From: Bacteroidota bacterium
Lineage (GTDB): Bacteria > Bacteroidota > Bacteroidia > UBA8524
Length of the DNA stretch: 64,000 nt
Direction of reading: 5' to 3'
Assembly (NCBI GenBank): GCA_006226545.1
Contig: SBGR01000079.1
Location: 1 to 64,000, forward strand
The notes beneath the pieces are model-generated. The model was not told the DNA's origin. It saw only the letters and a program-made list of their open reading frames with translations, and did not search any database. Positions 26,401-43,175 of this stretch are shown piece after piece (position 1 is the stretch's first letter; the number at the start of each line of letters is the position of its first letter). The translations under genes and the position numbers were made by a program.

Positions 26401-29400
26401 GCTCACGGCAGCAGCATCTCCCGGAATACGGCTCATCTTATACCAAGCCTCTCCTTTGATTGCATTGGCGTAAATCACATTGGCGGAAAAATCAATCGGT
26501 ATTGGAGGAAACTCGGCCCCGGCGCCAACCATCCAATAACGCATGTTGTTCTTTTCACCGAAAATGGCGGAAACACCTACCGCAATGGTTGGTTCAAACT
26601 TCGCTTGAATGATACCAGAAATAGCATTTCCATAAACCGGATCATTCGCTACGATGGCTATGCCACCCACCACCGAAACCACACCACTTAATTTAGCATC
26701 TACCCGGATGGTATCGAGATTCAGTCCGGCAAAATCCATCTCCCAGAGTTGTCCTTCTTTTTTCGGAACCCCAAACAAGCCAAAATTAAACTGTCCTCCA
26801 ATTCCATTACCATCTGCACCACCTTCTGTGATATTAATAGCCAAGCCCATGGATATTCCTTTTCTGATTCCGGGTGTCAAGGCTGCATCTTCAAACAAAC
26901 ATTTTCCATTGAACTCGGTAAAATCAAAACGGGTAATCTGAACCGGGAATCCGCCCACCTTTTTAGGTTCAGTCGAAACGGGAGCGGGCGTTGGACTTTC
27001 GCTAGACCCTCCTCCAACCAAGCGATTCATTTGCATACCGCCTAGTTTATCCAAACTGATGCGAAACGAATCCAAGCTTCCAAAACCCGTTCTTAACTTC
27101 AAGCCTTCAAACGGCAATGTTCCAAAGCGAATGTCTTTTAATCCAAGAAGCTCCTCTGCCTCCATAGCAACTTCTCCATTGAAATTGGCATTGAGCATCC
27201 AGGAGTTCGGGTTACGCACATCACCCTTCAGGCCAATGGTGCTGCTTTCATCGAGGTTTACACTGGCAAACCAGGCTGGCATACTCAATGTCTCCGGGTT
27301 GGTGATGCTGAAATCCATGTTCAGGCTATCTCTGGTTCTTCCTGTAGAAAGAAGCAGCTGATAAGCGAAAGGTTCTGTGAATAGTGGCGCACCCAACTCA
27401 CCCACCAGTCTGGAGCCACTCAAGGCATTGCTTACCACTTCAAAAGAGAATCGCTCAATGGAGAATTTCCATCCGGCTAAGGCGCCTGAATCCAGGTTCA
27501 AAAGGTTATCCGCTCCCACGCTCACCGTTAATCCGGAAGGGTCCATCAACATATTTTGCGCTGTGAATTGCAAGCCATTCGCGGTATCCCCTCCACTAAG
27601 CGCATCAGGTAAACGCATGGAGAATTCGCCGATATAGATTCCTTGCCAATCTGCTCCCCGCGTGCCTGCATAGCCTGCCGGAAACTGAATCGTTGAAGGA
27701 TTCATCACGTGAGAAAAATCCAACGTGAGGTGGCGTGCACTGAACTGGAAACCAGGAAGAAGAGTAGCTTCAAAACTTCGGTTCAAATCCAGCTCCAGCA
27801 TCCAATTTTGCATAGAAGCCACTGAGGCAAATCCGACGGCCGTAACTTTTCCGGGAGAAGGCAAACCTCTGTTCATGGGCGCCACCAAATCGCGACCCAA
27901 TTCAAGCGAAACTTTCAGGTCTATTTGCTTAAATCCATTGCAATCCCAAATCATGCGCGTACCGCTCACAGAAGACGTATCCGATTCTCGTCCAAGAATC
28001 TGAAACTCGGTAGAATCTGTCACTTGTATGCGTACCGCACCAATTAAATCTAAAGCGCCACCTTCAGTGATATCTGCTAAACCTTTGGCATTTAAGCACA
28101 CATCGGTAGCCCCAAATCCCAAGATTTGCCTATGCCCTAAGGCTGTGAATTCCACAAGTGAAACCGCATTGAGATTGGCCCTTTCCGGGGTAAAACGTAA
28201 ATCTGTTAAAGCGATGGTATACGGAAAGTTATCTACCGTCTTGCTCAAGCCTATTGGCAATTTTACCGGCTCATTGCTCAGTTCATCCAACAGTAAACAA
28301 GCCGGACTATTGATAAAATCATAGTATTCCGCCACTTTGCTGTGTGCCCCGGCTATCAGTTTATTTTTGAACTCATCAATTAGCCCGATTCCGGTATTCG
28401 TGCCATTCGTAACGGTACCCAACAGATCTGAGGTTTGGTATTGCGCCCTTACTTCACCACTAATCAACCTGCCTGAATCATTAAACTGAACACGATTGAA
28501 CCCAACGGCTAAAGGTCTTGGAAACAGTGAACATTTGATTTTTCCTTCACCGGAAAATTGTCCGGACGCTTCCCTGCGAATGGCCGTAAGTGTCATTTCA
28601 AACTGCCCCACCTTCATCACTTGTCCAAGTTTAGGTAAGGAATCGCTTGCTTGTCTATTGATACCCGACATTGGAAACACACAGCCCAAACCACAAACGG
28701 GTGTATCGCTAGAAGCAATTAGTGAATCAACCACCTCAAAGCTGTCGACAGCACTGAAGCGGTAATTGATTCTTTTCAGGAAGTCAAATCGATCCAATTC
28801 ATTGGCAGTTGTGCTATCAATCAGCAATTGTCCCAAGGCCATTAGGTTGAGCTGATTAGCGAAATAGTCTTTGTGCAGTTGCTGTGTTGTATCCACATCG
28901 GTTGGATTACTCCAGGTTATGCGGTAATAAAATTTTCCCTGTGGTAATGAATCCAGCTTTTCATTTCGCGGGAGATAAAAATCGTTCATAACCCGACCTT
29001 GTGAACCGGGAACTGAGTAGGATTCAATAATGGCTTTCGACTTTACCATAATGATACTATCGAAGCGTGGATCAGCCGCCACCTCGATATTCCATTGCTG
29101 TGCTGCAAAAAGCCTTGACCATTGCGAATTCCAAACCTCTCCATTTCCATTCTCAGGAAATACTTTAGCCGGCATGGCGGAAGGCTTAAAGCTGATTTCT
29201 ATGTTTCCTTTGTTAACCTGCCTTCCATTGAAGGTAGACACAAGTTCAGGCGTTTTCATCCCAACTTGAAACCCACCTTGAAGCGTGGCTTGCCCATTTT
29301 GCAAACTAGGGCTCAGGTTATTTAGCGATTGATTATGGCGAAAAGCCAACTCAAAGCTATCCAGAGAAATGGACGGGGTTCCAGCCGAAGTATAATAAGC

Positions 29401-32400
29401 CAGTCGCAATTGCCAGGCTATCGATTTAGTGGGTTGGAAATAGATGAGCTGGCCAATATTCTGCCTTTCATTATCCTCTGAACCTAGCCCCAGAATTTGC
29501 AAATTCGCGTTCCGATTCACGAGGAGTTGAATGAGGTTGATTTTACCTTGACCACTGTTTCCAAAAGGAAGAAGCTCAGACGAAGGCATGGTGCGAACCT
29601 GTAAGTACTTGTTTTTATTTCCTTCAACAGCAACTTGGTTAATAAGCGATTCAAAGTCCCCAGACTCTTCGCCTAACAGCTCCTGTTGAGCCAAGAGATC
29701 AAATTGAGCTCTATTTCGGACTAAGCTGCTATCGTAGGAAGCATTTAGAATAACTTGACCAGCATTGCTTAAACTATCAAACACATAATAATTGATGTTG
29801 CGAAAAGGCTCCAAATTGGAATTGAACTCACTTAAGGCAAAGTCCCAAAGCGTATCTGCAGGTAGCTTTTTCACTACTACCGGCGGATAGTAAAATGGGA
29901 TAGTATCACCTTCTGCAGGATAGACAAGTTCAAAATTGGGCTTTGGAATGGTGGCTGTATCCTTTTGAAAAACCACATAAAAACTGTCTGTAGCTGAAAC
30001 CCGGTAGTTTACTCTTTTAAAGAAAAAGGAATCGGCATTGCCTTCAAACTCCGGGTATTCTCCGGCCAATTGTGAATTGGCCAATTGCCTACCCAACTCC
30101 TGCCAGTAGGTTCTTTCTTGCAGATTGGGATTATCGCTTTGTGTGATATTGCTCCAGCTTACTCGCCAATAAACCGTACCGGTATCCCGTGGCTGAATGG
30201 CAATATTTTCTTGAGAGTAGAGGTCGCGAATAATTTCAGATTCCCCTTCGCTCACCCTATACTGTTTGATGATTTTTTTACTGATAACTGTATCCAGAAC
30301 AGAAAAATCAGGAGTCCTCGAAACCTCCACGTTCCATTGTTGCGCCACACCCAGGCTGAGAAAAGGCTGCCAAGACTCATTGTTATCCGGACTTGGCGGA
30401 AGCAGCTTCTGAGGCTTTAGCGATGGCTTAAACTGCAGCACCAAACTCTTTCCTGCTATCACTTCTTGTCCATTTTTAGTGAGCAATTGTGGCGTCCCCA
30501 TACCGGTGCTAAAGCGACCACCAGCCGTTTTATATCCTTGTTGCAAAAGAGACAGCTGCATATCGGATTGTTCAAATTGGTTTAACCTGAACTTTCGCTC
30601 ATAATCAACCATACCCATTTGATCAACCAACCCAATATCGTATACGCCAACTCTGGCAGTCCAGCTGATTCCATTTTTATACGGCATCAGGTACATGAAA
30701 GACGACAAGTTGGGGTAGTTAAAAAGAGGATTTTGCCCTAAAACTTGGCTTGCACCTTGGTAGCGAAACAGCTGCCTTGCCAATGCTTCTTTGCCGTCCA
30801 CCCCATTACCCAAGGGGAAATGCTTCGGCTCAAGTGCGCTGGCAATCTGCACAGTTGCTGATCCCGCTCTTTGATTTAGTATAGCTCCGGCTTCTTGGAT
30901 CAGTGCTGCGGCTGCATCAAAATCGCCTTCCAACTGCAAGCGTCCGGCTTCTTCCAACTTCGCCTCTACCCGATTCAAGGTAGAATCAAATCGAAAGCCA
31001 TTCAGTTGAGTATTGAACTCAGGATCTGTACTCAACTTGAGGTATTTATTACTTTCAACCGGCTCCAACGGTGAATTGAATTGGGTGAAAACAATTTTTT
31101 GTCGGGAATTCAGGTTCTGAGCAGAGATTAGGACCGGCGGATAATTGAACGGCAGCGTGTCTCCATTCACCGGGTAAACAGCCGTCAGAATGGTTTGACC
31201 TTCAGGTGTGAATCCATTAGGCCTACTGATATTGATTTCACATTGTTGTCGGCATTTGCCTTCATTTAATAAAATCAGGCTTGAGGCCAAGGGAGAACCC
31301 GGACGAATTCTATTGCGTATGGCAAACACTAAACGTGTATCGGCATTTTCTTCTTCACTCCCAAAACGGCCACTGGTTGAGAGTTGTGTAAGGATTGTTC
31401 CGAAGACTGGATTCTGCAGGCTGGTATCCAAAATCAGTTGACCGGTTCGTTCTTCAAACAAATCGGGTACGATGCCAAAAGCACTCAAGCTAACAATACG
31501 GATATCGGTAATCAGTTCTCCTTTTTCAGCAGAAAGCTTAAAAGCAGGATCAGCATAATCCCATTGCACGTTAAGCGGCACTTGAATTGGCAAAACGGTC
31601 TGCCCACAATTCTCTAAGGTAAAGAACGGTGGCTCAACCAATACCGGTTTTGTATCGATCAACCGAAATGCTTTTAAAGTGCTGAAGCCTTTGTTCTTAA
31701 AAACCGTTTTTCCATTGAGGTCTCGGGCTTCAATTAGTAAAAAATAATTCTTCCCAAATTCAAGCGGAGGATCTCCCGGAGAGATGATAAAAAAGGGTGT
31801 AGACGATGTTTTACTGAGGTAAGGAATCAAACTTGTGACGGTTTCCTTCATTCTCGCTTCCGGCATTTGATTCGGGTTGAAAGCGGTTTCATCGTATACG
31901 TGAAGCGTATATTCATAAAGCGCTCCGGGAATCATGGTGGGAGGCGTAAACTGTATGCTGTGATTTTGTCCGGCCAAACTATTAAACCCGAACTGTGGCA
32001 CTTCACCTCCGTAGGTATAATTTAGAAAATCGCTATTCAAGCGAATATCGGTTGGAGGGTCAGAATAGCTTACGTCAAAAGTAAAACAGCCTGTAGGTGA
32101 TCCTTGCGACATAGGCACGGTAAGCCCGGGAGCATCAAAATCAAAGGCTTGCATACATATTTCATAGGTGCCATCCGGGATGGTTCCATCTAGAATTAGG
32201 TTTTCAATATTGGCGCCGCGTATGGTGAAACTATGCTGATCTAGGCGTCCGTACAAACCCGATAAATCACTGAGCGTTAAAAAGCGAAATTCATTCGCCT
32301 TTAACTCAAAAACCTGAGCCGGCTGTAAATCACCGCGCAGCGCAATCTCAATGCCTTGTGCTCTATTGGAGAGGGAAAAGGAAAACTTCAATCGCAGATC

Positions 32401-32583
32401 CTTGCCACTGGAATTGAACAAAGAAATGGATACGTCTTCTAATCTTTCCGGCTTGGTATAATCGCTGATAAATGGTGTAAACGGAGGTTTTACCAAGAGG
32501 TTAACACTCACCTGAGCTCCTGCTTCCGCTATAGACAGCAGTAAGCCCACAAGAAAAAAGAAGTGCTTAAAACTGAAGGCCAT
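23455..32583 (-). CDS. Giant secreted TANFOR-domain-like protein (3042 aa from the ATG at 32583)
   Basis: Signal peptide MAFSFKHFFFLVGLLLSIAEAGAQ then VSVNLLVKPPFTPFISDYTKPERLEDVSISLFNSSGKDLRLKF...DGTIPDGTYEICMQAFDFD. ORF-track start 32619 trimmed. Confidence 0.78.
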   Translation of the reverse strand: MAFSFKHFFFLVGLLLSIAEAGAQVSVNLLVKPPFTPFISDYTKPERLEDVSISLFNSSGKDLRLKFSFSLSNRAQGIEIALRGDLQPAQVFELKANEFRFLTLSDLSGLYGRLDQHSFTIRGANIENLILDGTIPDGTYEICMQAFDFDAPGLTVPMSQGSPTGCFTFDVSYSDPPTDIRLNSDFLNYTYGGEVPQFGFNSLAGQNHSIQFTPPTMIPGALYEYTLHVYDETAFNPNQMPEARMKETVTSLIPYLSKTSSTPFFIISPGDPPLEFGKNYFLLIEARDLNGKTVFKNKGFSTLKAFRLIDTKPVLVEPPFFTLENCGQTVLPIQVPLNVQWDYADPAFKLSAEKGELITDIRIVSLSAFGIVPDLFEERTGQLILDTSLQNPVFGTILTQLSTSGRFGSEEENADTRLVFAIRNRIRPGSPLASSLILLNEGKCRQQCEINISRPNGFTPEGQTILTAVYPVNGDTLPFNYPPVLISAQNLNSRQKIVFTQFNSPLEPVESNKYLKLSTDPEFNTQLNGFRFDSTLNRVEAKLEEAGRLQLEGDFDAAAALIQEAGAILNQRAGSATVQIASALEPKHFPLGNGVDGKEALARQLFRYQGASQVLGQNPLFNYPNLSSFMYLMPYKNGISWTARVGVYDIGLVDQMGMVDYERKFRLNQFEQSDMQLSLLQQGYKTAGGRFSTGMGTPQLLTKNGQEVIAGKSLVLQFKPSLKPQKLLPPSPDNNESWQPFLSLGVAQQWNVEVSRTPDFSVLDTVISKKIIKQYRVSEGESEIIRDLYSQENIAIQPRDTGTVYWRVSWSNITQSDNPNLQERTYWQELGRQLANSQLAGEYPEFEGNADSFFFKRVNYRVSATDSFYVVFQKDTATIPKPNFELVYPAEGDTIPFYYPPVVVKKLPADTLWDFALSEFNSNLEPFRNINYYVFDSLSNAGQVILNASYDSSLVRNRAQFDLLAQQELLGEESGDFESLINQVAVEGNKNKYLQVRTMPSSELLPFGNSGQGKINLIQLLVNRNANLQILGLGSEDNERQNIGQLIYFQPTKSIAWQLRLAYYTSAGTPSISLDSFELAFRHNQSLNNLSPSLQNGQATLQGGFQVGMKTPELVSTFNGRQVNKGNIEISFKPSAMPAKVFPENGNGEVWNSQWSRLFAAQQWNIEVAADPRFDSIIMVKSKAIIESYSVPGSQGRVMNDFYLPRNEKLDSLPQGKFYYRITWSNPTDVDTTQQLHKDYFANQLNLMALGQLLIDSTTANELDRFDFLKRINYRFSAVDSFEVVDSLIASSDTPVCGLGCVFPMSGINRQASDSLPKLGQVMKVGQFEMTLTAIRREASGQFSGEGKIKCSLFPRPLAVGFNRVQFNDSGRLISGEVRAQYQTSDLLGTVTNGTNTGIGLIDEFKNKLIAGAHSKVAEYYDFINSPACLLLDELSNEPVKLPIGLSKTVDNFPYTIALTDLRFTPERANLNAVSLVEFTALGHRQILGFGATDVCLNAKGLADITEGGALDLIGAVRIQVTDSTEFQILGRESDTSSVSGTRMIWDCNGFKQIDLKVSLELGRDLVAPMNRGLPSPGKVTAVGFASVASMQNWMLELDLNRSFEATLLPGFQFSARHLTLDFSHVMNPSTIQFPAGYAGTRGADWQGIYIGEFSMRLPDALSGGDTANGLQFTAQNMLMDPSGLTVSVGADNLLNLDSGALAGWKFSIERFSFEVVSNALSGSRLVGELGAPLFTEPFAYQLLLSTGRTRDSLNMDFSITNPETLSMPAWFASVNLDESSTIGLKGDVRNPNSWMLNANFNGEVAMEAEELLGLKDIRFGTLPFEGLKLRTGFGSLDSFRISLDKLGGMQMNRLVGGGSSESPTPAPVSTEPKKVGGFPVQITRFDFTEFNGKCLFEDAALTPGIRKGISMGLAINITEGGADGNGIGGQFNFGLFGVPKKEGQLWEMDFAGLNLDTIRVDAKLSGVVSVVGGIAIVANDPVYGNAISGIIQAKFEPTIAVGVSAIFGEKNNMRYWMVGAGAEFPPIPIDFSANVIYANAIKGEAWYKMSRIPGDAAAVSGTPRLGQSFSGASFVPDNNQLFGFGAMLGITGPPGSPLFGELGLFAEISNFGSLSKLTMEGNMWMTTPDKTTAPVFIRGITTIDVSRKKFIGNLSALVNVGNGAVRGRTPQTIDNRTVYYAGMIDLLVDMSSLNPIWHIRMGNPFLENGRMGFGFYQGNKSLFEAGGYLLMGNDLPSNLPPIQTELAKKLEQAGLRIPSIRPRPSSNDFMVLMGVDANIPEKKIELGSFYAGMELQFALDGLLEPNAPNCNGRDGIQGWYMTGRAYAYSNIALGMHVDLPVFKGDLVVAEMNAGMLLNAGMMNPYTFNGQFSANFTALGGLIQGSRRFDFELNEDPKCVPSIPKQTVNINAIVAQVSPAPAAENVMIGVEPYIELNFPLDSIISYTLSGRTRPEQIRVRQEYYRIRQGQLSTSPLVIATTKPAEGRLVSKLIPQAFLKAGNTVYRIEAKYYVERFVYSATTGTTGTWTRTMANGRTWDTTLFYTFTTEAIAAFSPEYIVYSTPLAGENYFKKGEFTEGKIVCTRSDVQSAFFSNPPSTPEMRELTGYYIWYGQFVRAGDPSDTFRTPLRFAREQILFNLPPNLGPDKLYQFRLIREKIPGTPLQNTSLYTGTANTFTSGSLSGGQIMPQEGPGGNDPVVSPQSNPEIFRKLREAKVQGDPRVMMHSFVFGVSKYANTQMKLQALQQSISKYALSSSTGTTIELITEEPFENYEVKGFYKGTNLILAQKVHPVVSNSALDDNNWLTGFYRPKVFKAGDSLWKKRPYVAQFFDISKQLKGVNVQLDDHIKAPLPTNSYFGFDLRMADTRLNSFKPEISQVFLNSSVSQSITGESVNTNLTIDPQTGQVSSGGLFGSGYEAKTISGTSTATIELGTRLNLFYDFIPMASKEHARAVLLANLIITRAPSTWYYGLSVSEIQLVSRLYSGGQPFVLPASSDSFVAHLRPLTQGTATAKKVYISRLTLESATITRTFGSTSFSTFTR

Positions 32584-34270
32584 AAAGCAGATTAATTCGT
32601 TGTTCATTAAAGGCAGCATTGCTTACAATGCCGGTTGTATTGCGCATAAGGCGGCATGAAAGGCTGAGGCGGTGCTTTTTAGCCAAGAGGGCTTGTACAT
32701 TTAACTGAGATGAAAATACCAAGCCCTGTTTGAGTTGCTCTTCAAAGCGTTGCGTAAGACTTGAATTCAGCCCGGTAGTGAGTTTTTTCTTCCAGAAACT
32801 CCGCCTCAGATTCAATTGATAATTGTAAGTCGTATTGGTTCGATTGGCCACTTCAAAACGCGCTGCAGATAATCCTGCTCCACAATTCAAAGCCCAAGAT
32901 GGAATCTCGTATTGGCCATTTATTCCGGCCATGGCAATCTGGCTATTGTTGAATGCTCTGGTAAAAATATTCTGGTCGTCGGCTTGCTGGTACATGCCGA
33001 ATAGCGACAGAAAAAACAGCTTCTTTTCCGGACCAAGTCCAATATTCACATTGCTTTGCCAGGATTGATTAATGATACTGAATACGATTGAATCGTTCAT
33101 CTGTATCAAGCCGTTATTACGGGTGGTTCCAAAGTTATTGTAAGCGATACTGGCTGTGAGCCTTTGTGAATACGCCAAGTTTACCGAGGTATTGTAGATT
33201 TTCCTTACCGTTGTACTCACGCGTTTACCACTCAAGTTATCGGTATAAAATCCATAGGTTCCGTTCACAGATACTTTCCCTTTCCACATCCGGAAATTTG
33301 GACTCATGGAGTATTCCCTTAAATCATCTTGAATCGGGTTGATGCCTAAGCTGATAAAATCACTGCTAACCTGCTTCACTCGAAATCCCAGTCCCCAGCG
33401 TTGGTATTGCATGGAAAACCCAATATGCCCCGCATAGGCGCCATAAGTACTGGTGTTCACTCGGATAAAACGGTAAACGGTTGCCAACTCCTCTGTTTCA
33501 GGCAACGTATCGTTCAATACATTCCGAGTGAGCAAACTGAGCGTCAGGTTGCCTTCTAGACTAAAATGTTTGAGAAAACTGAATTTGAATTCCGGTCCGA
33601 AACTGACATTGTCCATAGGCCGAATGGTTTCAAACGAAGGAACTTCCTTCAAGGAACCCGGCATGTCTTTTCCTCTAAAGTAGCTGAAGTCAACATAATT
33701 CCGGCTACTGCCTATACCTAGTTTACCTCCATAAGCAATGCGCTGGTAACTCGGCAAAATCACTCCAGCATCACCTTGTAAGGTATCCGGATTGATAGCT
33801 GGATTCAGTTCACCATAAAAGGCTGCAAAGCGAAATTTACCGGGTTTTAGCTCAACCCCGGCACCTTTGAATACCACACCATTCAAGGTATAATCACCAA
33901 GTTTGAGTGTGCGGTAACCCAAATGCAAAGTAGCCCATTTGTAATAGGGGCTAACACCCACAAACTGGTAGCGAAAGGGATGTGTTAGGCTCCTTCCTGT
34001 TTCACTGTAGGTAAAGCTGAATGGAACTTGAATGCCATAAAACTTCATCCATGGCGAACCTGTGATAAACCAGTTATAAGGATTTCCTCGGGGAGTCGCG
34101 GCGTTTGTAGTATACGATCCGGCACCGATGCTTAAACTTCCTCCGTAGGTAAAGGGTTTCTTTTTAGGGATTTCTTTTAACTCCTTCAGTCGCGCTACAT
34201 CTTGTCCTAGCACAGAAACCGGACTAAGCATTAGAGCCGTAAAAAATGACAGAAGGAGATACCTTTTCAC
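32567..34270 (-). CDS. Outer-membrane beta-barrel protein, GTG start
   Basis: Signal peptide MKRYLLLSFFTALMLSPVSVLGQ; alternating beta-strand pattern; ends INLLYGLQF with terminal Phe. Confidence 0.75.
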   Translation of the reverse strand: MKRYLLLSFFTALMLSPVSVLGQDVARLKELKEIPKKKPFTYGGSLSIGAGSYTTNAATPRGNPYNWFITGSPWMKFYGIQVPFSFTYSETGRSLTHPFRYQFVGVSPYYKWATLHLGYRTLKLGDYTLNGVVFKGAGVELKPGKFRFAAFYGELNPAINPDTLQGDAGVILPSYQRIAYGGKLGIGSSRNYVDFSYFRGKDMPGSLKEVPSFETIRPMDNVSFGPEFKFSFLKHFSLEGNLTLSLLTRNVLNDTLPETEELATVYRFIRVNTSTYGAYAGHIGFSMQYQRWGLGFRVKQVSSDFISLGINPIQDDLREYSMSPNFRMWKGKVSVNGTYGFYTDNLSGKRVSTTVRKIYNTSVNLAYSQRLTASIAYNNFGTTRNNGLIQMNDSIVFSIINQSWQSNVNIGLGPEKKLFFLSLFGMYQQADDQNIFTRAFNNSQIAMAGINGQYEIPSWALNCGAGLSAARFEVANRTNTTYNYQLNLRRSFWKKKLTTGLNSSLTQRFEEQLKQGLVFSSQLNVQALLAKKHRLSLSCRLMRNTTGIVSNAAFNEQRINLLYGLQF

Positions 34271-34275
34271 GGTAT

Positions 34276-34305: not shown

Positions 34306-34325
34306 CTACAACTAAAGGTGTAAAA
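34306..34325 (-). promoter_or_regulatory. Candidate response-regulator operator, copy 1
   Basis: Minus strand TTTTACACCTTTAGTTGTAG; same element at 42479-42498; 22 nt from -7 box. Confidence 0.6.
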
Positions 34326-34979
34326 TCAGATCCAACCGAGCTCCGTGGCGAGTTTCACCAAGGCAGCGCTGTTCCTCAATCCCAGTTTTTTAAGAATATT
34401 ATGGCGGTGTGTTTTTACCGTCAAACTGCTCAGAAATAATTGCTCGCCAATCTCGGCATTGGTATATCCATGCGCTACGAGTTTAACAATCTCCAATTCC
34501 CTTTTGCTGAGTTGATTTACTTTCTCATCCAAGTTGCGCGATTCCCAATCGGCATTGTGGTGTTCACTTAGCTGTTGAATTTCTTGTTGCAGCGAAGTGC
34601 TCAAATAGACCTTACCCGAAAGCACGGCAGCCATGGCTTGTTCCAGCTCTTCAAAGTCTGTGTTTTTGGGAATGAATCCCATGGCTCCGGCATCCATCGC
34701 CTTAGAAATCACAAGACTGTCTTTTAACATGCTCACCACAATCACCGGAACTTGAAATTCAGCCTCACGAAGCTGCACTAGGAGGTCAAGGCCATTGCCA
34801 TCCGGCATCACCAAATCAAGAAAAACAAGGTCTGGCGGATGGGCTAAAAGTTCACGTTTAGCCGTTTCGCTATCCGAGTAGATATCATGCAATACATAAT
34901 CACCCACCTGAACAATGAGTCCGGCAAGTGCCTGTGCAAATAATCTATGATCTTCTACAATACTGAATTTCTGGCTCAA
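34326..34979 (-). CDS. NarL/FixJ-family response regulator (receiver plus LuxR HTH), TTG start
   Basis: Receiver PPDLVFLDLVMPDGNGLDLL; HTH LSKRELEIVKLVAHGYTNAEIGEQLFLSSLTVKTHRHNILKKL. Confidence 0.95.
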   Translation of the reverse strand: MSQKFSIVEDHRLFAQALAGLIVQVGDYVLHDIYSDSETAKRELLAHPPDLVFLDLVMPDGNGLDLLVQLREAEFQVPVIVVSMLKDSLVISKAMDAGAMGFIPKNTDFEELEQAMAAVLSGKVYLSTSLQQEIQQLSEHHNADWESRNLDEKVNQLSKRELEIVKLVAHGYTNAEIGEQLFLSSLTVKTHRHNILKKLGLRNSAALVKLATELGWI

Positions 34980-37888
34980 GTAGCCAAATTTACGAAAACA
35001 TCGACAGTGGTTCCTGCATTTACCTCACTTTGGATATTAATTTTTCCGCGCATCACCTCAGCCCGGCTTCGCATGTTTTGAAGCCCAAAGCCCTGGAGCT
35101 TATCGGAAGCGAACCCAAGACCATTATCGCTAATGTGCATCTTTAACTCCTTTCCATCCAACTCCAACTTCAGCGTAATCTTATTAGCCGATGCGTATTT
35201 AAGCGCATTGTTCAAAGCCTCTTGTGCTATGCGGTAGAAGTTGTTTTCGATAAACTCAGGAAAACGCCGTCCTGCAGGCAAACACTTCACCTCCCATACC
35301 AATTCGGGATGGTTTTTCCGGTGCATTTCAATCAGTTTATCCAAGGCAGCGCAAAGGCCTTGATTTCGAATTATCTCCGGACTAAGTTCCTGAAGTATTA
35401 ACCTAAACTCGGCAATGGTTTCATCGATAACCTGCCCGATAGGCGGCAGTTTTTCATTTTCAGGATAGCGTTTCAGCGACTCCCCCATCAGTTTGATTGT
35501 GCTCAAGTTCGGACCAATTGCATCGTGAAAGTCTTGGCTTACTCGTTCTCTTTCTTGTTCAACAGATTCAAGTATAACGCGTAGCTCGTTTCGTTTTGCT
35601 TCAAGCTGCTGATGTAATCTCCACCGTATAATCAGCGCAATCACAGCGACCAATACCAGTGCACATAACAGAACAAACCACCACTTAGCATACCAAGGAA
35701 AAGCAACCATGAGCAGCTGTTCTTGCTCAGCGGTTTTTCTTCCATTTAACATGGCATAATAGCGCAGCTGATGTTTTCCCGGCGATAAGTTCTCAAATAG
35801 CAGTCGTTGATCGGGTGCCAGCTGAAACTGCTGCCCGTCTAGACTGTAAAACACCTTACAACTCGCGTCATCCGGATAAGGCGCTCGAATACCGAAATAC
35901 AATTCTAGTCCGCCGTTAGAATACGCCAACTGAATCTGACTTCGAGCACCGGCATCTTGCCATTCTTCCTTCCAACGGATAAAACTTAAGCGGATGCTAT
36001 TGCTGTAATCAGCTTGATTTTCGGGATAGGCATATTGTGCACCGGATGTAAGTAGGTGAAGTTCCTTATTCCATAAAAATGGAATTCCGGGCGAATGTAC
36101 TCCTTGAAAAGCATGCACAACCACAGCCTTCCCCGATTCCAAACGGTAAAGCTTATTGTAAGTAGCGAAATAAAATTTACCGCCCACAACGGCAGCATTG
36201 AGCACATTGTCGTTGATAACAAAATCGTCTCCATTCACTTTTATAAGCGAATCGCTCAGGGGATCTAATAGCAGCACGCCCGCTTGGGTGTTAACCATGT
36301 ACTTTCCTTCAAAAGGAAGGATGGATTGAACCACAGCCCGACTGCAACCTGCCCTATAGAATTGTTCGGATGAAATACCATGCCCGCTATTGTTTGAAAA
36401 GTCTACCTTCATCAAACCATCGCTACCATTGGCTCCAAGCCAGTAGGTAAAAGGGCCGGTTTGCGTTATGCAGCGAACCGTACGAAACCATCCTTTATCG
36501 TTTCCATTAAAGAAATTTTCGGCGCCCTTAGTCAAGTCTTTGGTAAGTAGTGGATGATGGAAAAGACCCATCACTAAGAATCCGTTTTTCCGATCAACAT
36601 GGATAGCATTGATGCGAACAGTTTTTACCAAGTTTTCTATTGAATCAGAGAAGATTCTTAAAGGAATATAACGCTCTTGGGAAATGCTAAATCCGGTATA
36701 TCCACCGGTTCCGTAGACCAAAAGGGTATCGGTATTCCAAATGCTGGCACCTAAAGCCGTTATCACACCATTCGCTTTTGAATCTAATAACACCCGCTTG
36801 CCGGTCGATTTTTCCAGTTTCAACATGCCCCATTTATGGGAAAAGAAAAAGGCCTCTTCCGTTTCATAAACAGACTGCCTTGACGGGTTAGTGAGCGATT
36901 TAGAATCTTTATAGCCTATTTCCTGAACAAGCGGATTGGATTTTTTCCAAATGGAAAGCCCGTGATTTCCACTGAGTATGAACTCTTCCTCACCGGTCTC
37001 ATTGATGTGATGTAGACTTGGCAGACTTCCGAAATAGAATGAATCTGTGGTTTTTTCAGCCAAGCGATAAACGTATTCTCCCTGCCATAAATACAAAGAC
37101 TTACCACTGAAATAGCCGTATCTAGTTGCGCCGGACGATACAGACCTAAGCGTATCCTTTATTCGATCATATTGGTAAATCGCACCACTCCGTCCATCGC
37201 GAAAAAGAGGCGACCCTTGCTTACGGCCAATGGGTTTCAGTCTTCTAGTATCCGCTAGCAAACGATTAGACGGATTGTCTTCTTCAAGCACTAACCTGTT
37301 TTCGTTTACTAAAAATTCACCTAAGCCATAGCGAAAGGCAATGTAGATTGAACTAGCTCCAGTATAAGGCTCAATACTGTTAGCATAGGCCACCAGCATT
37401 TCTGCCCCACGATCTAACCTATGACGATAGCAATCTTCAAGTTGAAAGTTGTTTAGGTAAATTCGGTAGACGCCGGGTTCACCAACGGCTAACACAGAAT
37501 GATCCGGTAAATAGGCTGCATCGTGTAAAACAAAATTCAGGGTATCTGAAAATACCATGGACCTGCCTTCGAATGTGATGGCGTGCAAAAGGTGAATTTG
37601 CCTGTTTTGAATCACCAAGATGCTATCGCCAACTTCAAAAATTCGGACTACAGGTTGGTGAGGAATATGTTTCAGGTGAATGAGGTGGAAGCCATCAAAT
37701 ACCTCAATACCCACTTTTGAACCAATGAAATAATTTCCGGCTGCATGGTGAACCACCTCCGAGATTTGGTTGCTCTGGAGTTCGGTGTTTTGGCTTAGCC
37801 GGACCTCAAAATACGACTGCGCCGAAATGGAGTTCGAGAGCAGCCAGACCGCTAAAAAAAGAATCAGATTTCGGTAAAATGACTTCAT
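34976..37888 (-). CDS. NarX-type (HisKA_3) sensor histidine kinase with large extracytoplasmic beta-propeller-like sensor
   Basis: Signal peptide; about 700-aa beta-rich N-terminal region; TM WWFVLLCALVLVAVIALII; ERVSQDFHDAIGPNLSTIK; HATPase FYRIAQEALNNALKYASA...DNGLGF. ATG at 37888. Confidence 0.93.
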   Translation of the reverse strand: MKSFYRNLILFLAVWLLSNSISAQSYFEVRLSQNTELQSNQISEVVHHAAGNYFIGSKVGIEVFDGFHLIHLKHIPHQPVVRIFEVGDSILVIQNRQIHLLHAITFEGRSMVFSDTLNFVLHDAAYLPDHSVLAVGEPGVYRIYLNNFQLEDCYRHRLDRGAEMLVAYANSIEPYTGASSIYIAFRYGLGEFLVNENRLVLEEDNPSNRLLADTRRLKPIGRKQGSPLFRDGRSGAIYQYDRIKDTLRSVSSGATRYGYFSGKSLYLWQGEYVYRLAEKTTDSFYFGSLPSLHHINETGEEEFILSGNHGLSIWKKSNPLVQEIGYKDSKSLTNPSRQSVYETEEAFFFSHKWGMLKLEKSTGKRVLLDSKANGVITALGASIWNTDTLLVYGTGGYTGFSISQERYIPLRIFSDSIENLVKTVRINAIHVDRKNGFLVMGLFHHPLLTKDLTKGAENFFNGNDKGWFRTVRCITQTGPFTYWLGANGSDGLMKVDFSNNSGHGISSEQFYRAGCSRAVVQSILPFEGKYMVNTQAGVLLLDPLSDSLIKVNGDDFVINDNVLNAAVVGGKFYFATYNKLYRLESGKAVVVHAFQGVHSPGIPFLWNKELHLLTSGAQYAYPENQADYSNSIRLSFIRWKEEWQDAGARSQIQLAYSNGGLELYFGIRAPYPDDASCKVFYSLDGQQFQLAPDQRLLFENLSPGKHQLRYYAMLNGRKTAEQEQLLMVAFPWYAKWWFVLLCALVLVAVIALIIRWRLHQQLEAKRNELRVILESVEQERERVSQDFHDAIGPNLSTIKLMGESLKRYPENEKLPPIGQVIDETIAEFRLILQELSPEIIRNQGLCAALDKLIEMHRKNHPELVWEVKCLPAGRRFPEFIENNFYRIAQEALNNALKYASANKITLKLELDGKELKMHISDNGLGFASDKLQGFGLQNMRSRAEVMRGKINIQSEVNAGTTVDVFVNLAT

Positions 37889-37893
37889 CAAGC

Positions 37894-40800
37894 TTAATGC
37901 ACTATTACCATTTTACTAAAATAATGATATCCATCCTGGTAAAGGTGAATATAATAAACTCCCGGCAACCAGGAGGAGCAATCTACACGGATTTCTCCAT
38001 CGCTAACTTGCTCTTCCAAGACAACTCTTCCCCATCCGGAGTAAACCTTCAGCTGGAAATCTCCTTGACCTTTAATGAAATACTGTCGCCCTGCCGGATT
38101 AGGGTAGATAAGCCAATCCGGACGAACAGGTGCTGCTTGACCCAGAAGCTCATCCCAGCTATTGGCCGGACAACCATTGGCATTGATTACACTCACATCA
38201 TAGACTCCTTCTAATTGAATGGTGATCAATCGATTTGTATCTCCTACCAAACTGTCTCGGTCTACATACCATTGGTAGCTTACAAAAGGTGTATCTGTAG
38301 AAAGTAAGGCATAACCGGCAGCCACAACAAAAGGTTTGAATTGGGGACGGCGGAACAAATTTAAGTGGACATTGGAATCACAGCCATTGTTTGCGGTAAG
38401 CACTTCGGTATAAAAACCGGATTCAGTGAGCGAATTACCAAAGAAGCTATAGACTGATCCATAACAAATGGTATCATTCAAGTAAGTTCCAACACTATCT
38501 AAGGCATGTACCTCGCTAATTAAAATGCTATCGCAGCCCAAGCGATTACTTAAGGTATCGAAGTAAATTCCGGGTGCTATTTTTAAGCTATTTCCGGTGA
38601 ATAATGAGGCCCCTGCACATAAATCAAAATGCACCCGAACTGAATCCACGGAGCGCTCCACCTGTTCATACATCAGAATGGAATCGCAGCCAAAACGATT
38701 GCTCAAGGTATCGATAAAAAGACCACTTCCTTTCTTGAAGGATAGGCCAACGAAGAGGCTATCGCCAAAGCAAACCGTATCGCTTAATTGCGTTATTTCC
38801 AGAGGTCGCTCTACCAGCTGAATCTCCAAAATACTGTCGCAACCATAGCGATTTACCAGCGTATCAAAATAGGTTGCAGTGCCCAATTTATAGCTCAATC
38901 CGTAAAATATGCTATCGCCGAAACACACGGTATCCTGAATCAGACTGGTTTCCAATGTTCTTTCAAAAAGACGCAGCACAACTACACTATCACAGCTTCG
39001 GTAACCTTGTAGTGTATGATAATAAACACCACTTTGAGTCAGTGGTTGTCCGAAAAAGGAGAAACTTGCCCCTTGACAGATGCTATCAAAGAGAAATACC
39101 GAATCAGGCTGAATGATACTTAAAGAATAAAACACCAAGCTATCGCATCCTTTGGCCGCTTGATAGGTTTCAGAATAAGCTCCTGCCACGGTACGGAAAG
39201 CTCCATCCAGAAGAATGCTATCACCCAAACAAATGGACAAGGCCACCTGGGTACGGATAACCGTATCAACAGTTAGCGCCAAGGTTACCAAGCTATCGCA
39301 ACCTTTGGTTGTTTGGAACAGGAAGGGATAGAATCCGGATTGCGTATAATACTGATTACCAAAAAAGAGGCTATCTCCACCACAAAGCCCAGTGGTAAAC
39401 GTATCGTTGTATACCGAGTTAATAAATACAGAAGTGATAAAAATACTATCGCAAGAATGGATTGTCTGGAAGCTGTCTGTATAAACCCCGGCCTGCGAAA
39501 CAAACCGGCTGTGCAGGAATAAGCTATCGCCTGAACAAAGCTCAACACTGTCCGTTTGAGCAAAGATTGGATTCACTTGCAACTGCACACGAACAAAACT
39601 ATCACAGCCCAAGGTGGTTTTAAAAAGGGAGTCGAAGGTTCCGGAAACATGCTGGTATGTTCCATGTATCAGCAAACTATCTCCTGAACACAGTTGCCTA
39701 AACAAGGTATCTGAATAGCTCGGATTTACTTTCAGCTCAAATACCACCACACTATCGCAACCAAAGCGATTCAGGGTATCGTGGACATAAAATCCAGCCA
39801 ACTTCTCGTAGTTTCCGAAGATAAAAAGGCTGTCGATTGAACAAATGGTAGCGCTCAACGTATCACGAAAGGAAGGAATAAAGAAGACCGAATCAGTCCA
39901 TTCTGCCTGGCAACGTACTTCGTGTATCCTTTGAAACTTAAAGCGCAGAACCAAGGTATCTGATGCTCCACTGAAGTATTGAAAACTATCGGCACTGCTA
40001 CTTAAAGTGCTGCTCCCATTAACAAACCAGGAGAATTGAAAACTATCTACCGGCCAGTTTCCTAGTCTTACGATATCCTCTTTAAACAACAAGGTATCTC
40101 CCAAGCAGAGATTTCCCTGCCGCGTAAAACGGGCAGAATCCAACATCGGACAGTCAATCACGTACAGCGTATCCTTATGCCAAGTGCTTGAAAAACCGTT
40201 TTCTTGCTGAGCCCAGATTCGGTATTCGTGTAAACCAAACTGGAGGGAAGTATCTGTTGGACTTAATAAAGTATCGCTAAGGGTATCGCGTGGTGGAGCA
40301 TACGAAACTTGGAAGGTATAGCTTGAGTCTAACAAAGAAGAATCAACCGCATAGCGAACGCTTTGAATTCCGGATGGACCGAGGGTATCTTGAATAAAAA
40401 AGAGGTGAGACTGCCAAGGGCTCCAATACCCCTGTTCCAATTTCGTTCGCACCATGATTTGATGGGGACCAGCCGCTAAAGTGTTAATCCCGATGAGTTC
40501 CTTCTTTTCTAATGTATCTGCCGGAGTAAACACAATTTGATTGGCCTTTCCCACACCGGGGTCTTTATCGATAAAGTACTCTGATTCAGAAATGAATCCG
40601 GCATTTACCGTGTCTTCGATGTAGATGAGGTGCAATTGCCACGGACTCCAATAACCGCTCCTCACATGAGAACGAACATGCACAAAATGTTCACCTGCTG
40701 AATAGGCTCCGAGGCTGTGGGTAAATGAGGAATCAATACTGTCTGATGCTGCAATAGGCGCTTGTTCGCTGATGCCAAATCCTCCATCTTCATCAATAAA

Positions 40801-41343
40801 ATACTCCACTTGATCAATGTTTCCGGATGAAACAGTATCCTCAATATAGAAGAGGTGCAATTGCCAAGGACTCCAATAGCCACTGCTTACGTGGGTGCGA
40901 ACATGGGCAAAATGAACCCCTTCTGAATAACCTGCAACAGACTGCTGAAAAGTGATGGCTATGCTATCGGAAGGTATCAAATGGAGCGATGATACAATCC
41001 CAAAACCAGCATCTTCATCAATAAAATATTCAGCCTCATCCAGATTTCCTGCAGATACAGTGTCTTCCACGTAAAAAAGGTGCAATTGCCAGGGGCTCCA
41101 ATAACCTCCGCTGTCTAGCATACGCACGTGCATGAAATGGGTTCCCGGCACTAGATTTTGAATTGCATGGGAAAAATCAAGTTCCACGGTATCGGCATTG
41201 GTGGAAACCGTAATAGGGATAGCCTGTCCAATACCGGGGTCGGTATCGATAAAATACTCCAGCCGGCTGAACGATTGAGAACTCACCCGATCACACAGCA
41301 TTAGGAGTAAAGCAAAAAGAAAATAGCGATACCGAGACAGCAT
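37894..41343 (-). CDS. T9SS-secreted surface protein with two different tandem-repeat arrays
   Basis: Signal peptide; four EYFID...GYWSPWQLHLFYIEDT repeats; ten C.GDS...GCDS repeats; type A sorting C-terminus WLIYPNPAGRQYFIKGQGDFQLKVYSGWGRVV. Confidence 0.9.
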   Translation of the reverse strand: MLSRYRYFLFALLLMLCDRVSSQSFSRLEYFIDTDPGIGQAIPITVSTNADTVELDFSHAIQNLVPGTHFMHVRMLDSGGYWSPWQLHLFYVEDTVSAGNLDEAEYFIDEDAGFGIVSSLHLIPSDSIAITFQQSVAGYSEGVHFAHVRTHVSSGYWSPWQLHLFYIEDTVSSGNIDQVEYFIDEDGGFGISEQAPIAASDSIDSSFTHSLGAYSAGEHFVHVRSHVRSGYWSPWQLHLIYIEDTVNAGFISESEYFIDKDPGVGKANQIVFTPADTLEKKELIGINTLAAGPHQIMVRTKLEQGYWSPWQSHLFFIQDTLGPSGIQSVRYAVDSSLLDSSYTFQVSYAPPRDTLSDTLLSPTDTSLQFGLHEYRIWAQQENGFSSTWHKDTLYVIDCPMLDSARFTRQGNLCLGDTLLFKEDIVRLGNWPVDSFQFSWFVNGSSTLSSSADSFQYFSGASDTLVLRFKFQRIHEVRCQAEWTDSVFFIPSFRDTLSATICSIDSLFIFGNYEKLAGFYVHDTLNRFGCDSVVVFELKVNPSYSDTLFRQLCSGDSLLIHGTYQHVSGTFDSLFKTTLGCDSFVRVQLQVNPIFAQTDSVELCSGDSLFLHSRFVSQAGVYTDSFQTIHSCDSIFITSVFINSVYNDTFTTGLCGGDSLFFGNQYYTQSGFYPFLFQTTKGCDSLVTLALTVDTVIRTQVALSICLGDSILLDGAFRTVAGAYSETYQAAKGCDSLVFYSLSIIQPDSVFLFDSICQGASFSFFGQPLTQSGVYYHTLQGYRSCDSVVVLRLFERTLETSLIQDTVCFGDSIFYGLSYKLGTATYFDTLVNRYGCDSILEIQLVERPLEITQLSDTVCFGDSLFVGLSFKKGSGLFIDTLSNRFGCDSILMYEQVERSVDSVRVHFDLCAGASLFTGNSLKIAPGIYFDTLSNRLGCDSILISEVHALDSVGTYLNDTICYGSVYSFFGNSLTESGFYTEVLTANNGCDSNVHLNLFRRPQFKPFVVAAGYALLSTDTPFVSYQWYVDRDSLVGDTNRLITIQLEGVYDVSVINANGCPANSWDELLGQAAPVRPDWLIYPNPAGRQYFIKGQGDFQLKVYSGWGRVVLEEQVSDGEIRVDCSSWLPGVYYIHLYQDGYHYFSKMVIVH
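38350..39850 (-). repeat. Ten tandem about 51-aa (about 150-bp) paired-cysteine repeats
   Basis: Consensus (L/I/V)C.GDS(L/I)(F/L)...G.(Y/F)...L....GCDS(I/L/V). Confidence 0.85.
40380..41290 (-). repeat. Four tandem about 83-aa repeats
   Basis: EYFID.D.G.G ... GYWSPWQLHLFYIEDTV; the DNA segment rc(ggtgcaattgcca-ggactccaat) recurs at about 40630, 40855 and 41077, degenerate at about 40406. Confidence 0.85.
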
Positions 41344-41346
41344 GGC

Positions 41347-42444
41347 CTATTCTGGTTTTCTGGCCTTAATTTTCACTTTCAATACCCCACCCTTCTTTAT
41401 TACAGGATTGAGAATTTCGAAGTCGTCGAAGACCGCCACACCGGGCACATTCCCTACAATACTAAATTTATAACCTCCGTTGTACAAGCCAACATCGGTA
41501 CTGTCCGTACCACCTAAAACGCCAATGGATGAAGAGCTTAAGTGCATGTCGTTGTTTTCATTGTAACTAGGTGGGTTCGTGGCATCGTAGCCTCCAACAA
41601 ACACAGGCATGGTATCGTTGTAATTAATCCCCGGCAAGGTATCCGGAGTATTCAATGCACTGTAGGTGATATTGTTTCTAAAAACAGAACCAAGATTGAG
41701 GGTATCAAAGCGGGACCGTGAAGGCACATTGCTCCACATGATATTATTATACACTTTGACATAAGAGTTCCGGATAAAGCCGATACCTCCGCCATTCACA
41801 TTGCCCGACCCATTTTTTATCTCAGCAAAAATGTTTCCTGAGACAAGATTGGATGAGTTCCCATCTCGAATAAACATAAAGCTATTCCCGTTATAATTAC
41901 CTGAACCAATGGTAAAAGAAAAGTAGTTATTCAATATCAGGTTATTCTGTGCCGCATTGATAACGTAGATATAGGTACCATAGAAATTGGTAAAGCCTGT
42001 CAACACATTACCCTGAATCAAATTTTCGTCTCCATCCAAGTAGATTCCCGCAGTTATTTGATTATTGATAATGCGGATAGCGCGAGCTCTGTTTCCGGAA
42101 ACGGATGAAATGGAAACCTGACCGGAAATAAAGAGTCCGGCGATAACTGAACTATCTGCATTCGCATTAAAAGTGAATCCCGATACTTGCGCTCTTTTGT
42201 CTTTGTCGATAGTATTGCTGCTATGCCCGCGGCTATAGATAAAGAGTTTCTTAGTAACCGTTAACGACGCATAGACGGAATAAGAAGGCATTACCAGAAT
42301 GGTATCTCCATTTGAAGCCGAATCTTGTGCTGCAAAAAGGGTGGTGCATTGCGCACCTGAACCCGGCGTATTGTCCACCGTCCAAATGGTAGCGCTTGCG
42401 AGAAAGGGCAGGAAAAGAGCGAGGAAAAGGAAACACTTTTTCAT
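41347..42444 (-). CDS. Secreted right-handed parallel beta-helix protein
   Basis: Signal peptide; regularly spaced N-rich turns (NNQITAGIYLDGDENLIQGNVLTGFTNFYGTYIYVINAAQNNLILNNYF). Confidence 0.75.
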   Translation of the reverse strand: MKKCFLFLALFLPFLASATIWTVDNTPGSGAQCTTLFAAQDSASNGDTILVMPSYSVYASLTVTKKLFIYSRGHSSNTIDKDKRAQVSGFTFNANADSSVIAGLFISGQVSISSVSGNRARAIRIINNQITAGIYLDGDENLIQGNVLTGFTNFYGTYIYVINAAQNNLILNNYFSFTIGSGNYNGNSFMFIRDGNSSNLVSGNIFAEIKNGSGNVNGGGIGFIRNSYVKVYNNIMWSNVPSRSRFDTLNLGSVFRNNITYSALNTPDTLPGINYNDTMPVFVGGYDATNPPSYNENNDMHLSSSSIGVLGGTDSTDVGLYNGGYKFSIVGNVPGVAVFDDFEILNPVIKKGGVLKVKIKARKPE

Positions 42445-42478
42445 GTTTCAAATTTCCCGAACCTGTTGGCGTATTAGG

Positions 42479-42498
42479 CTACAACCAAAGGTGTAAAA
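42479..42498 (-). promoter_or_regulatory. Candidate response-regulator operator, copy 2
   Basis: Minus strand TTTTACACCTTTGGTTGTAG; 19/20 identical to the element at 34306-34325; 22 nt from the -7-like box GAAATTTG at 42449-42456. Confidence 0.6.
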
Positions 42499-42520
42499 AA
42501 AGGGACTCAAGGTCCCTTTT
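42496..42520 (-). terminator. Rho-independent terminator of the CoA-transferase operon
   Basis: AAAAGGGAC-CTTGA-GTCCCTTTTTTT on the minus strand immediately after the stop codon. Confidence 0.8.
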
Positions 42521-42521
42521 C

Positions 42522-43175
42522 TTAAATATCCATCTGCTTCACATTGGGCGATATGGTTAACCTCCCCGCCGTAGCAGCTTTAATTTCATCAATTGTAACA
42601 CCGGGCGCGTATTCCGTACAAACGAAACCTTCAGATGTGATATCAAATACACCTAGGTTCGTAACTACTTTACGCACGCATTTCAAACCGGTGATGGGCA
42701 AGGTGCACGCATCAAGCAATTTGGAGTTACCGGCTTTGTCGGTATGCTGCATCGCTACGATGATGTTCTTTGCGCTGGCCACAAGGTCCATCGCTCCACC
42801 CATGCCTTTGACCATTTTACCCGGAATTTTCCAGTTGGCGATATCGCCGTTATCGGCCACTTCCATCGCTCCCAACACCGTCAAGTCCACTTTTCCGGCA
42901 CGGATCATCCCGAAGCTCATGGCGCTATCAAAAAAGCTAGAGCCCGCCGTTGTGGTAACTGTTTGTTTACCGGCATTGATCAGGTCGGCATCCACCTGGT
43001 CTTCGGTAGGAAAAGGACCAATACCCAATAAGCCATTTTCTGATTGAAGGATAACCTCCACCCCGGCCGGCACATAGTTGGCCACAAGGGTTGGGATTCC
43101 AATTCCCAGGTTAACGTAGTATCCGTCTTCCAATTCCTGGGCTATACGTTTTGCAATTCCGAATTTATCTAACAT
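42522..43175 (-). CDS. scoB: 3-oxoacid CoA-transferase subunit B
   Basis: GYYVNLGIGIPTLVANYVPAGVEVILQSENGLLGIGPFP; CoA-transferase family I beta signature. Confidence 0.95.
   Translation of the reverse strand: MLDKFGIAKRIAQELEDGYYVNLGIGIPTLVANYVPAGVEVILQSENGLLGIGPFPTEDQVDADLINAGKQTVTTTAGSSFFDSAMSFGMIRAGKVDLTVLGAMEVADNGDIANWKIPGKMVKGMGGAMDLVASAKNIIVAMQHTDKAGNSKLLDACTLPITGLKCVRKVVTNLGVFDITSEGFVCTEYAPGVTIDEIKAATAGRLTISPNVKQMDI

Follow-up and report, generated by a model that had tools for sequence, protein, structure and literature searches.

Near-identical NarL-like candidate operators precede both units of a surface-protein and two-component locus in a Bacteroidota genome

Two 20-nt elements that differ at a single base lie upstream of the two units of a Bacteroidota locus that encodes surface proteins together with a sensor kinase and a response regulator. 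We consider it likely, at a probability of roughly 0.8, that these elements are NarL-type 7-2-7 operators through which the local kinase/regulator pair activates both units. This reading draws on the sequence and placement of the pair in the window (the whole 64-kb stretch of DNA that was analysed), on the equal spacing of both copies to their promoters, and on the recurrence of the same layout beside NarL-type regulators of other Bacteroidia.

The element pair and the genes it precedes

All genes of the locus lie on the minus strand. The first unit begins with a gene for a beta-helix-like surface protein (predicted fold; 41347..42444), which is followed by genes for a TANFOR-type surface protein with a T9SS sorting tail (37894..41343), a HisKA_3/HATPase sensor kinase (34976..37891) and a NarL-type response regulator (34326..34979), the last two overlapping by 4 nt. 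The second unit comprises genes for an outer-membrane protein (OMP; 32567..34270), a giant secreted protein of 3054 aa that is an OMP partner in many Bacteroidia (23455..32619) and an FN3-like secreted protein (21458..23458). Within both units, the genes are separated by a few bases or overlap. The initial annotation had called the gene at 34326-34979 a NarL-type regulator, and its domains agree with that assignment: the product joins a receiver to a GerE/LuxR helix-turn-helix, as do members of the NarL/FixJ family, and its closest full-length solved structure is NarL (1a04), with those of VraR and DevR also matching. Regulators of the LiaR/VraR/DevR type belong to the same family and share this domain build. 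The kinase carries HisKA_3 and HATPase_c, the combination that defines NarX/UhpB-type kinases.

The TANFOR name is taken from the initial reading of the protein sequence and from published work (PMC7073777), and homologues of the protein were found. The TANFOR polymorphic toxin class is defined by an N-terminal TANFOR domain and a C-terminal toxin domain (PMC7073777); no C-terminal toxin domain was found in the 37894..41343 protein, which ends in the T9SS sorting tail. The product of the preceding gene, 41347..42444, matches a profile of the proteins that precede TANFOR at 16 other loci (E 2.5e-47). The two genes form a conserved unit: in nearly all of 29 other loci across the class (L373-L401), a beta-helix-like gene lies directly 5' of the one for TANFOR.

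Copy 1 of the element, TTTTACACCTTTAGTTGTAG (minus strand, 34325-34306), starts at the base directly after the regulator stop codon and contains the 7-2-7 core TACACCT-TT-AGTTGTA (34322-34307). Copy 2, TTTTACACCTTTGGTTGTAG (minus strand, 42498-42479), contains the core TACACCT-TT-GGTTGTA (42495-42480). The pair had been described as identical; position and strand were given correctly, and the copies are near-identical, with one base of the 20 different. Each consists of inverted heptamers with a 2-bp spacer and outer TAC/GTA, and the 16-bp imperfect inverted repeat reported earlier is present in both cores, the inner pairing being imperfect (6 of 8 pairs complementary in copy 1). The flanks of the two copies are unlike each other.

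A search of the window with TTTTACACCTTTRGTTGTAG, allowing up to three mismatches, returned two matches versus 0.02 expected from shuffles, in keeping with the earlier statement that the window holds no third copy. The genome scan that the initial annotation had suggested was likewise clear: across the 3.45-Mb genome, the window copies are the only matches with up to two mismatches, and the four matches with up to three are the window pair plus two at exactly three mismatches, which is about chance level. The inverted-repeat form TACAMCYNNRGKTGTA has two exact matches genome-wide, both of them the window copies, and shows no enrichment in the genome when up to two mismatches are allowed (116 versus 125 in a reversed control). 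Because only the window pair matches closely genome-wide, the elements constitute a specific pair and not a scattered family of copies. Own-genome sites of exactly the window spacing, among those inspected, lie inside or antisense to unrelated genes.

Chance similarity, or a functionless leftover of a duplication, would be a most improbable explanation of the pair. A one-mismatch repeat of 20 nt somewhere in the 64-kb window is not rare, with about 0.2 expected; within two given 60-nt promoter regions, the figure falls to about 1e-7, with the equal spacing still uncounted. The position before both units, the equal spacing, the unlike flanks and the recurrence of the layout elsewhere all speak against such an origin.

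A hairpin with a U tract (42494..42524, minus strand; -15.6 kcal/mol, z -3.7) ends the preceding gene at 42522-43175, which is scoB-like by a name given from sequence alone, and copy 2 begins within this U tract. The hairpin was not listed by a consensus terminator scan, and the sigma-70 and terminator consensus scans were uninformative. Elsewhere in the same genome (L174:712, contig C50), the palindrome TACGCAGTTATGCGTA separates a kinase gene from the gene of another NarL-type regulator; no -7 box accompanies it at the usual spacing.

Promoter boxes and predicted starts of transcription

The initial annotation placed a -7-like box 22 nt past each element and 5 or 4 nt before the start codon, and these coordinates are confirmed. 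The OMP operon carries TAGTTTTG (34283-34276, minus strand), an exact TAnnTTTG located 5 nt before the GTG, and the beta-helix operon carries GAAATTTG (42456-42449, minus strand), which departs from TAnnTTTG at the first base and is located 4 nt before the ATG. The two boxes are unlike each other, and relative to the gene start they lie at -13 and -12, respectively. Their reading as -7 boxes is backed by a promoter profile of 288 upstream regions, drawn from some 780 kb of genome sequence that includes the window; its numbers are approximate because gene calling was mechanical. In this profile, TAnnTTTG clusters strongly in the stretch from -45 to -11 and peaks sharply at exactly -12 (11 cases), and TTG is found preferentially 19-20 nt ahead of the box. 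This -33 TTG is absent from both window promoters.

Relative to the transcription start, the Bacteroidota box is reported to occupy -12 to -5 (PMC9723704, PMC6847099), and the genome spike at -12 therefore corresponds to a leaderless class. With boxes at -12 and -13, transcription is predicted to start at 42444, the A of the ATG, for the beta-helix unit and at 34271, one base before the GTG, for the OMP unit (both on the minus strand), and both mRNAs are probably leaderless or nearly so. Numbered from these predicted starts, the operator cores span -51 to -36 and the 20-mers -54 to -35, such that the earlier estimate of roughly 40-50 bp upstream is refined to a centre of -43.5. As a separate observation, about one sixth of TAnnTTTG boxes near gene starts lie at exactly -12, for example those at window 6437 and 42449-42456, and the leaderless class seems to exceed the 5.5% published for Flavobacterium psychrophilum.

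The 20-mers lie just upstream of the -33 position and at equal distance from the -7 box, as might a promoter element such as the -33 region recognized by a special sigma factor. Nonetheless, they have the two-fold symmetry of a dimer site, their position is -54 to -35, the two -7 boxes are unlike, and sites of the same layout in two other loci (L325 and L236) have a distinct TTG after them, at the distance normal for -33. We thus regard a promoter element as extremely improbable and continue to treat the 20-mers as candidate operators.

Recurrence of the layout beside NarL-type regulators

When GTDB contigs were scanned for TACAMCYWWRGKTGTA with AnnTTTG following within 22-26 nt, 61 stretches were returned, a number of the order of chance (about 40 expected by our own estimate). 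In two of them, both Bacteroidota loci, the site adjoins a kinase/regulator pair. One (L235) has a site on either side of the regulator gene, and its two sites and that of the other (L236) are all at the window spacing. The regulators of both loci belong to a NarL-type subfamily with the helix-turn-helix sequence ETVRTHV or ETIRTHI. The follow-up sample consisted of the loci of relatives of this regulator type in 388 genomes of the class. There, TACTACTAAAGTAGTA, TACCACTTAAGTAGTA and similar palindromes immediately precede or follow the regulator gene, and 22 or 23 nt separate them from a -7 box.

To quantify the layout, TAC-Nk-GTA followed by xAnnTTTG at a distance of 5-54 nt was counted in 58 regulator loci (208 kb) and in 1.65 Mb of other DNA of the same class. 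For k=10, the distance is 22-23 nt, equal to that in the window or one base shorter, in 19 of 35 pairs from the regulator loci versus 3 of 70 from the control DNA (Fisher p 9e-9, a value that overstates independence because the regulator loci are mutually related; the loci span several families). This corresponds to an enrichment of about 50-fold for TAC-N10-GTA at 22-23 nt beside NarL-type regulators (19 in 0.21 Mb versus 3 in 1.65 Mb). Spacers N8, N9, N11 and N12 give no peak in the same regulator loci. The initial annotation had likened the elements to NarL sites of 7-2-7 form, and this likeness is strengthened by the finding of the same layout, with almost no freedom in spacing, beside other NarL-type regulators.

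Fifteen of the 19 sites lie beside ETVRTHV regulators and four beside regulators of the window regulator's own sequence group (33-37% identical), in which the site occurs in 3 of 29 loci. In the ETVRTHV group, 13 palindromes carry the outer TAC..GTA sequence versus 0.75 expected from shuffles. The strongest support comes from the ETVRTHV subfamily, and not from the window regulator's own group. Nearly all layout sites are on the strand of the regulator and in the gaps beside its gene, and several regulator loci have one site before and one after it. The downstream site is followed by a gene for a T9SS-tailed or T9SS-like secreted protein in four loci (L334, L341, L351 and L336) and by one for a beta-helix protein in two (L331 and L335). 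The ETVRTHV-type loci (L325, L330, L331, L333-L336, L341, L350, L351 and L236) resemble the window in having 7-2-7 sites with TAC..GTA at 22-23 nt from a -7 box, upstream and downstream of the regulator gene and often before surface-protein genes. They differ from it in their consensus heptamer, TAC(T/A/C)ACT, and in gene order, and their regulators are about 26-30% identical to that of the window.

Searches for the bare site were not enriched. With up to three mismatches, the 20-mer is no commoner in 59 relatives than a reversed control, and TACAACYNNRGTTGTA alone occurs in 31 places in the 388 genomes of the class, about as often as its reversed control. The site is thus informative only in combination with the -7 spacing and a regulator neighbourhood. 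Neither the family nor GTDB yielded an orthologue of the whole locus. Of the conservation in relatives that the initial annotation had looked for, the architecture recurs beside NarL-type regulators and orthologous loci were not found.

Several other sequences were encountered in these searches. In one locus, two copies of TACCTGTTTTCCTGTA lie 570 bp apart at equal spacing to CAAATTTG (L367:5743 and 6313), downstream of a NarL-type regulator. In three Bacteroidota MAGs, TACAACTAAAGTTGTA is present at the window spacing to a -7 box (L245:4183, L254:4781 and L255:4239), before a conserved gene for an exported protein (MKKQIFLF...), with no regulator gene within the stretches examined. A conserved block that starts with TACAACTTTAGTTGTA and ends with GTTGAAGGTAAGTTTG precedes a short inverted repeat in Thiobacillus records, and in a single MAG that bears the label Rhizobium (L252, L263, L265 and L291), and is probably unrelated to the operators.

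The association of the site with the neighbouring surface-protein genes was also examined. In three genomes of one genus (L355, L356 and L357), the kinase, the regulator and a beta-helix/TANFOR pair are encoded in a row. The site immediately precedes the beta-helix gene in L355 and L356, and in L357 it lies before another surface gene; a further locus of this genus (L365) is similar, with more genes in between. In at least two lineages, the NarL-type system has thus been combined with beta-helix/TANFOR pairs. Upstream regions of TANFOR loci in relatives had been suggested as a place to seek conservation of the element, and this expectation was not borne out: among 30 TANFOR loci, the window spacing occurs in one, the window's own, and the site is ruled out as a general TANFOR/beta-helix feature. 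Because most TANFOR pairs lack it, the site goes with the NarL-type system and not with TANFOR.

In about 49 of 68 homologous loci (L041-L129), the OMP occurs together with the 3054-aa giant protein as a conserved pair. A link of the site to this pair was rejected, since the pair recurs in other families and sites before the OMP gene do not. Four OMP loci with an adjoining LuxR-type regulator have no site before OMP, and an OMP protein search of GTDB contigs found no relative.

The placement of these sites also bears on which protein binds them. Half-sites are similar across the family, and besides the regulator the genome encodes about nine proteins with a GerE domain, each of them, for instance a second NarL-type protein, a conceivable binder; however, the sole close copies in the genome are in this locus, one of them abutting the regulator stop codon, and in other genomes such sites adjoin the regulator gene. 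A different regulator is therefore very unlikely. Its position, and the example of the other loci, make the local regulator the likely binder.

Proposed regulation and comparison with E. coli NarL

E. coli NarL binds as a dimer to 7-2-7 sites (PMC4549865), and a single such site at -44.5 suffices for activation at ogt1052 (PMC9314961). The window sites share with those of NarL the two heptamers, the outer TAC/GTA, the 2-bp spacer and a location near -44, and copy 1 agrees with an engineered E. coli NarL site, TACCCCTAAAGGGGTA (narG -89/-89), at 13 of 16 bases. In contrast to E. coli NarL promoters, those of the window have the Bacteroidota TAnnTTTG box and a predicted leaderless start, and the sites belong to a surface-protein locus rather than to respiration genes. 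The heptamer consensus for NarL is TACYNMT. The window halves, TACACCT and TACAACY, do not fit it, having A and not Y as the fourth base; 22 of 44 halves of the wider set do fit. By analogy, the window layout would work like that of NarL, with the strict heptamer consensus failing at the fourth base.

In the proposed mechanism, the HisKA_3 kinase would phosphorylate the adjacent response regulator, and a dimer of the phosphorylated regulator would bind each site, centred at -43.5, and recruit RNA polymerase to the two promoters, each with a -7 box and without the -33 TTG. Copy 2 would drive the beta-helix/TANFOR/kinase/regulator unit, resulting in positive feedback, and copy 1 would drive the OMP/giant/FN3 unit, with both mRNAs beginning at, or within one base of, the start codon.

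It is conceivable that the local regulator instead represses from these sites, or activates at one and represses at the other. Copy 2 would control the operon that encodes the regulator, a setting in which negative feedback is common, and some 7-2-7 sites serve E. coli NarL for repression (PMC4549865). However, the repressing NarL site at frdA is near the start site (PMC4549865), unlike the window sites, and a centre of -43.5 without a -33 TTG fits a promoter that needs help. Repression is thus unlikely, and activation of both units by the local regulator is preferred. The initial annotation had proposed that the regulator activates its own operon and the OMP/giant/FN3 operon. Its assignment of the sites to the adjacent regulator is reinforced by the recurrence of the layout beside other NarL-type regulators, and we infer binding, phosphorylation by the local kinase and activation rather than repression. 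As a whole, that interpretation is largely supported.

Bacteroidota have many NarL-type regulators. Our literature searches, in which most subscription journals were outside coverage, found no published description of NarL operators in Bacteroidota and none of six 16-mers. The loci described here suggest a Bacteroidota-wide rule, to which we give about even odds: a 7-2-7 site in a fixed position relative to the TAnnTTTG box, with its centre at -42.5 or -43.5, and often paired around the regulator gene, through which each kinase/regulator pair would switch on itself and neighbouring cell-surface genes, with specificity residing in the inner heptamer bases. A rule that joins site, spacing and gene neighbourhood would allow targets to be predicted from sequence, and would link NarL-type systems to the control of T9SS-exported surface proteins. 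With one regulator, two promoters and two sites, the window locus provides a compact test case.
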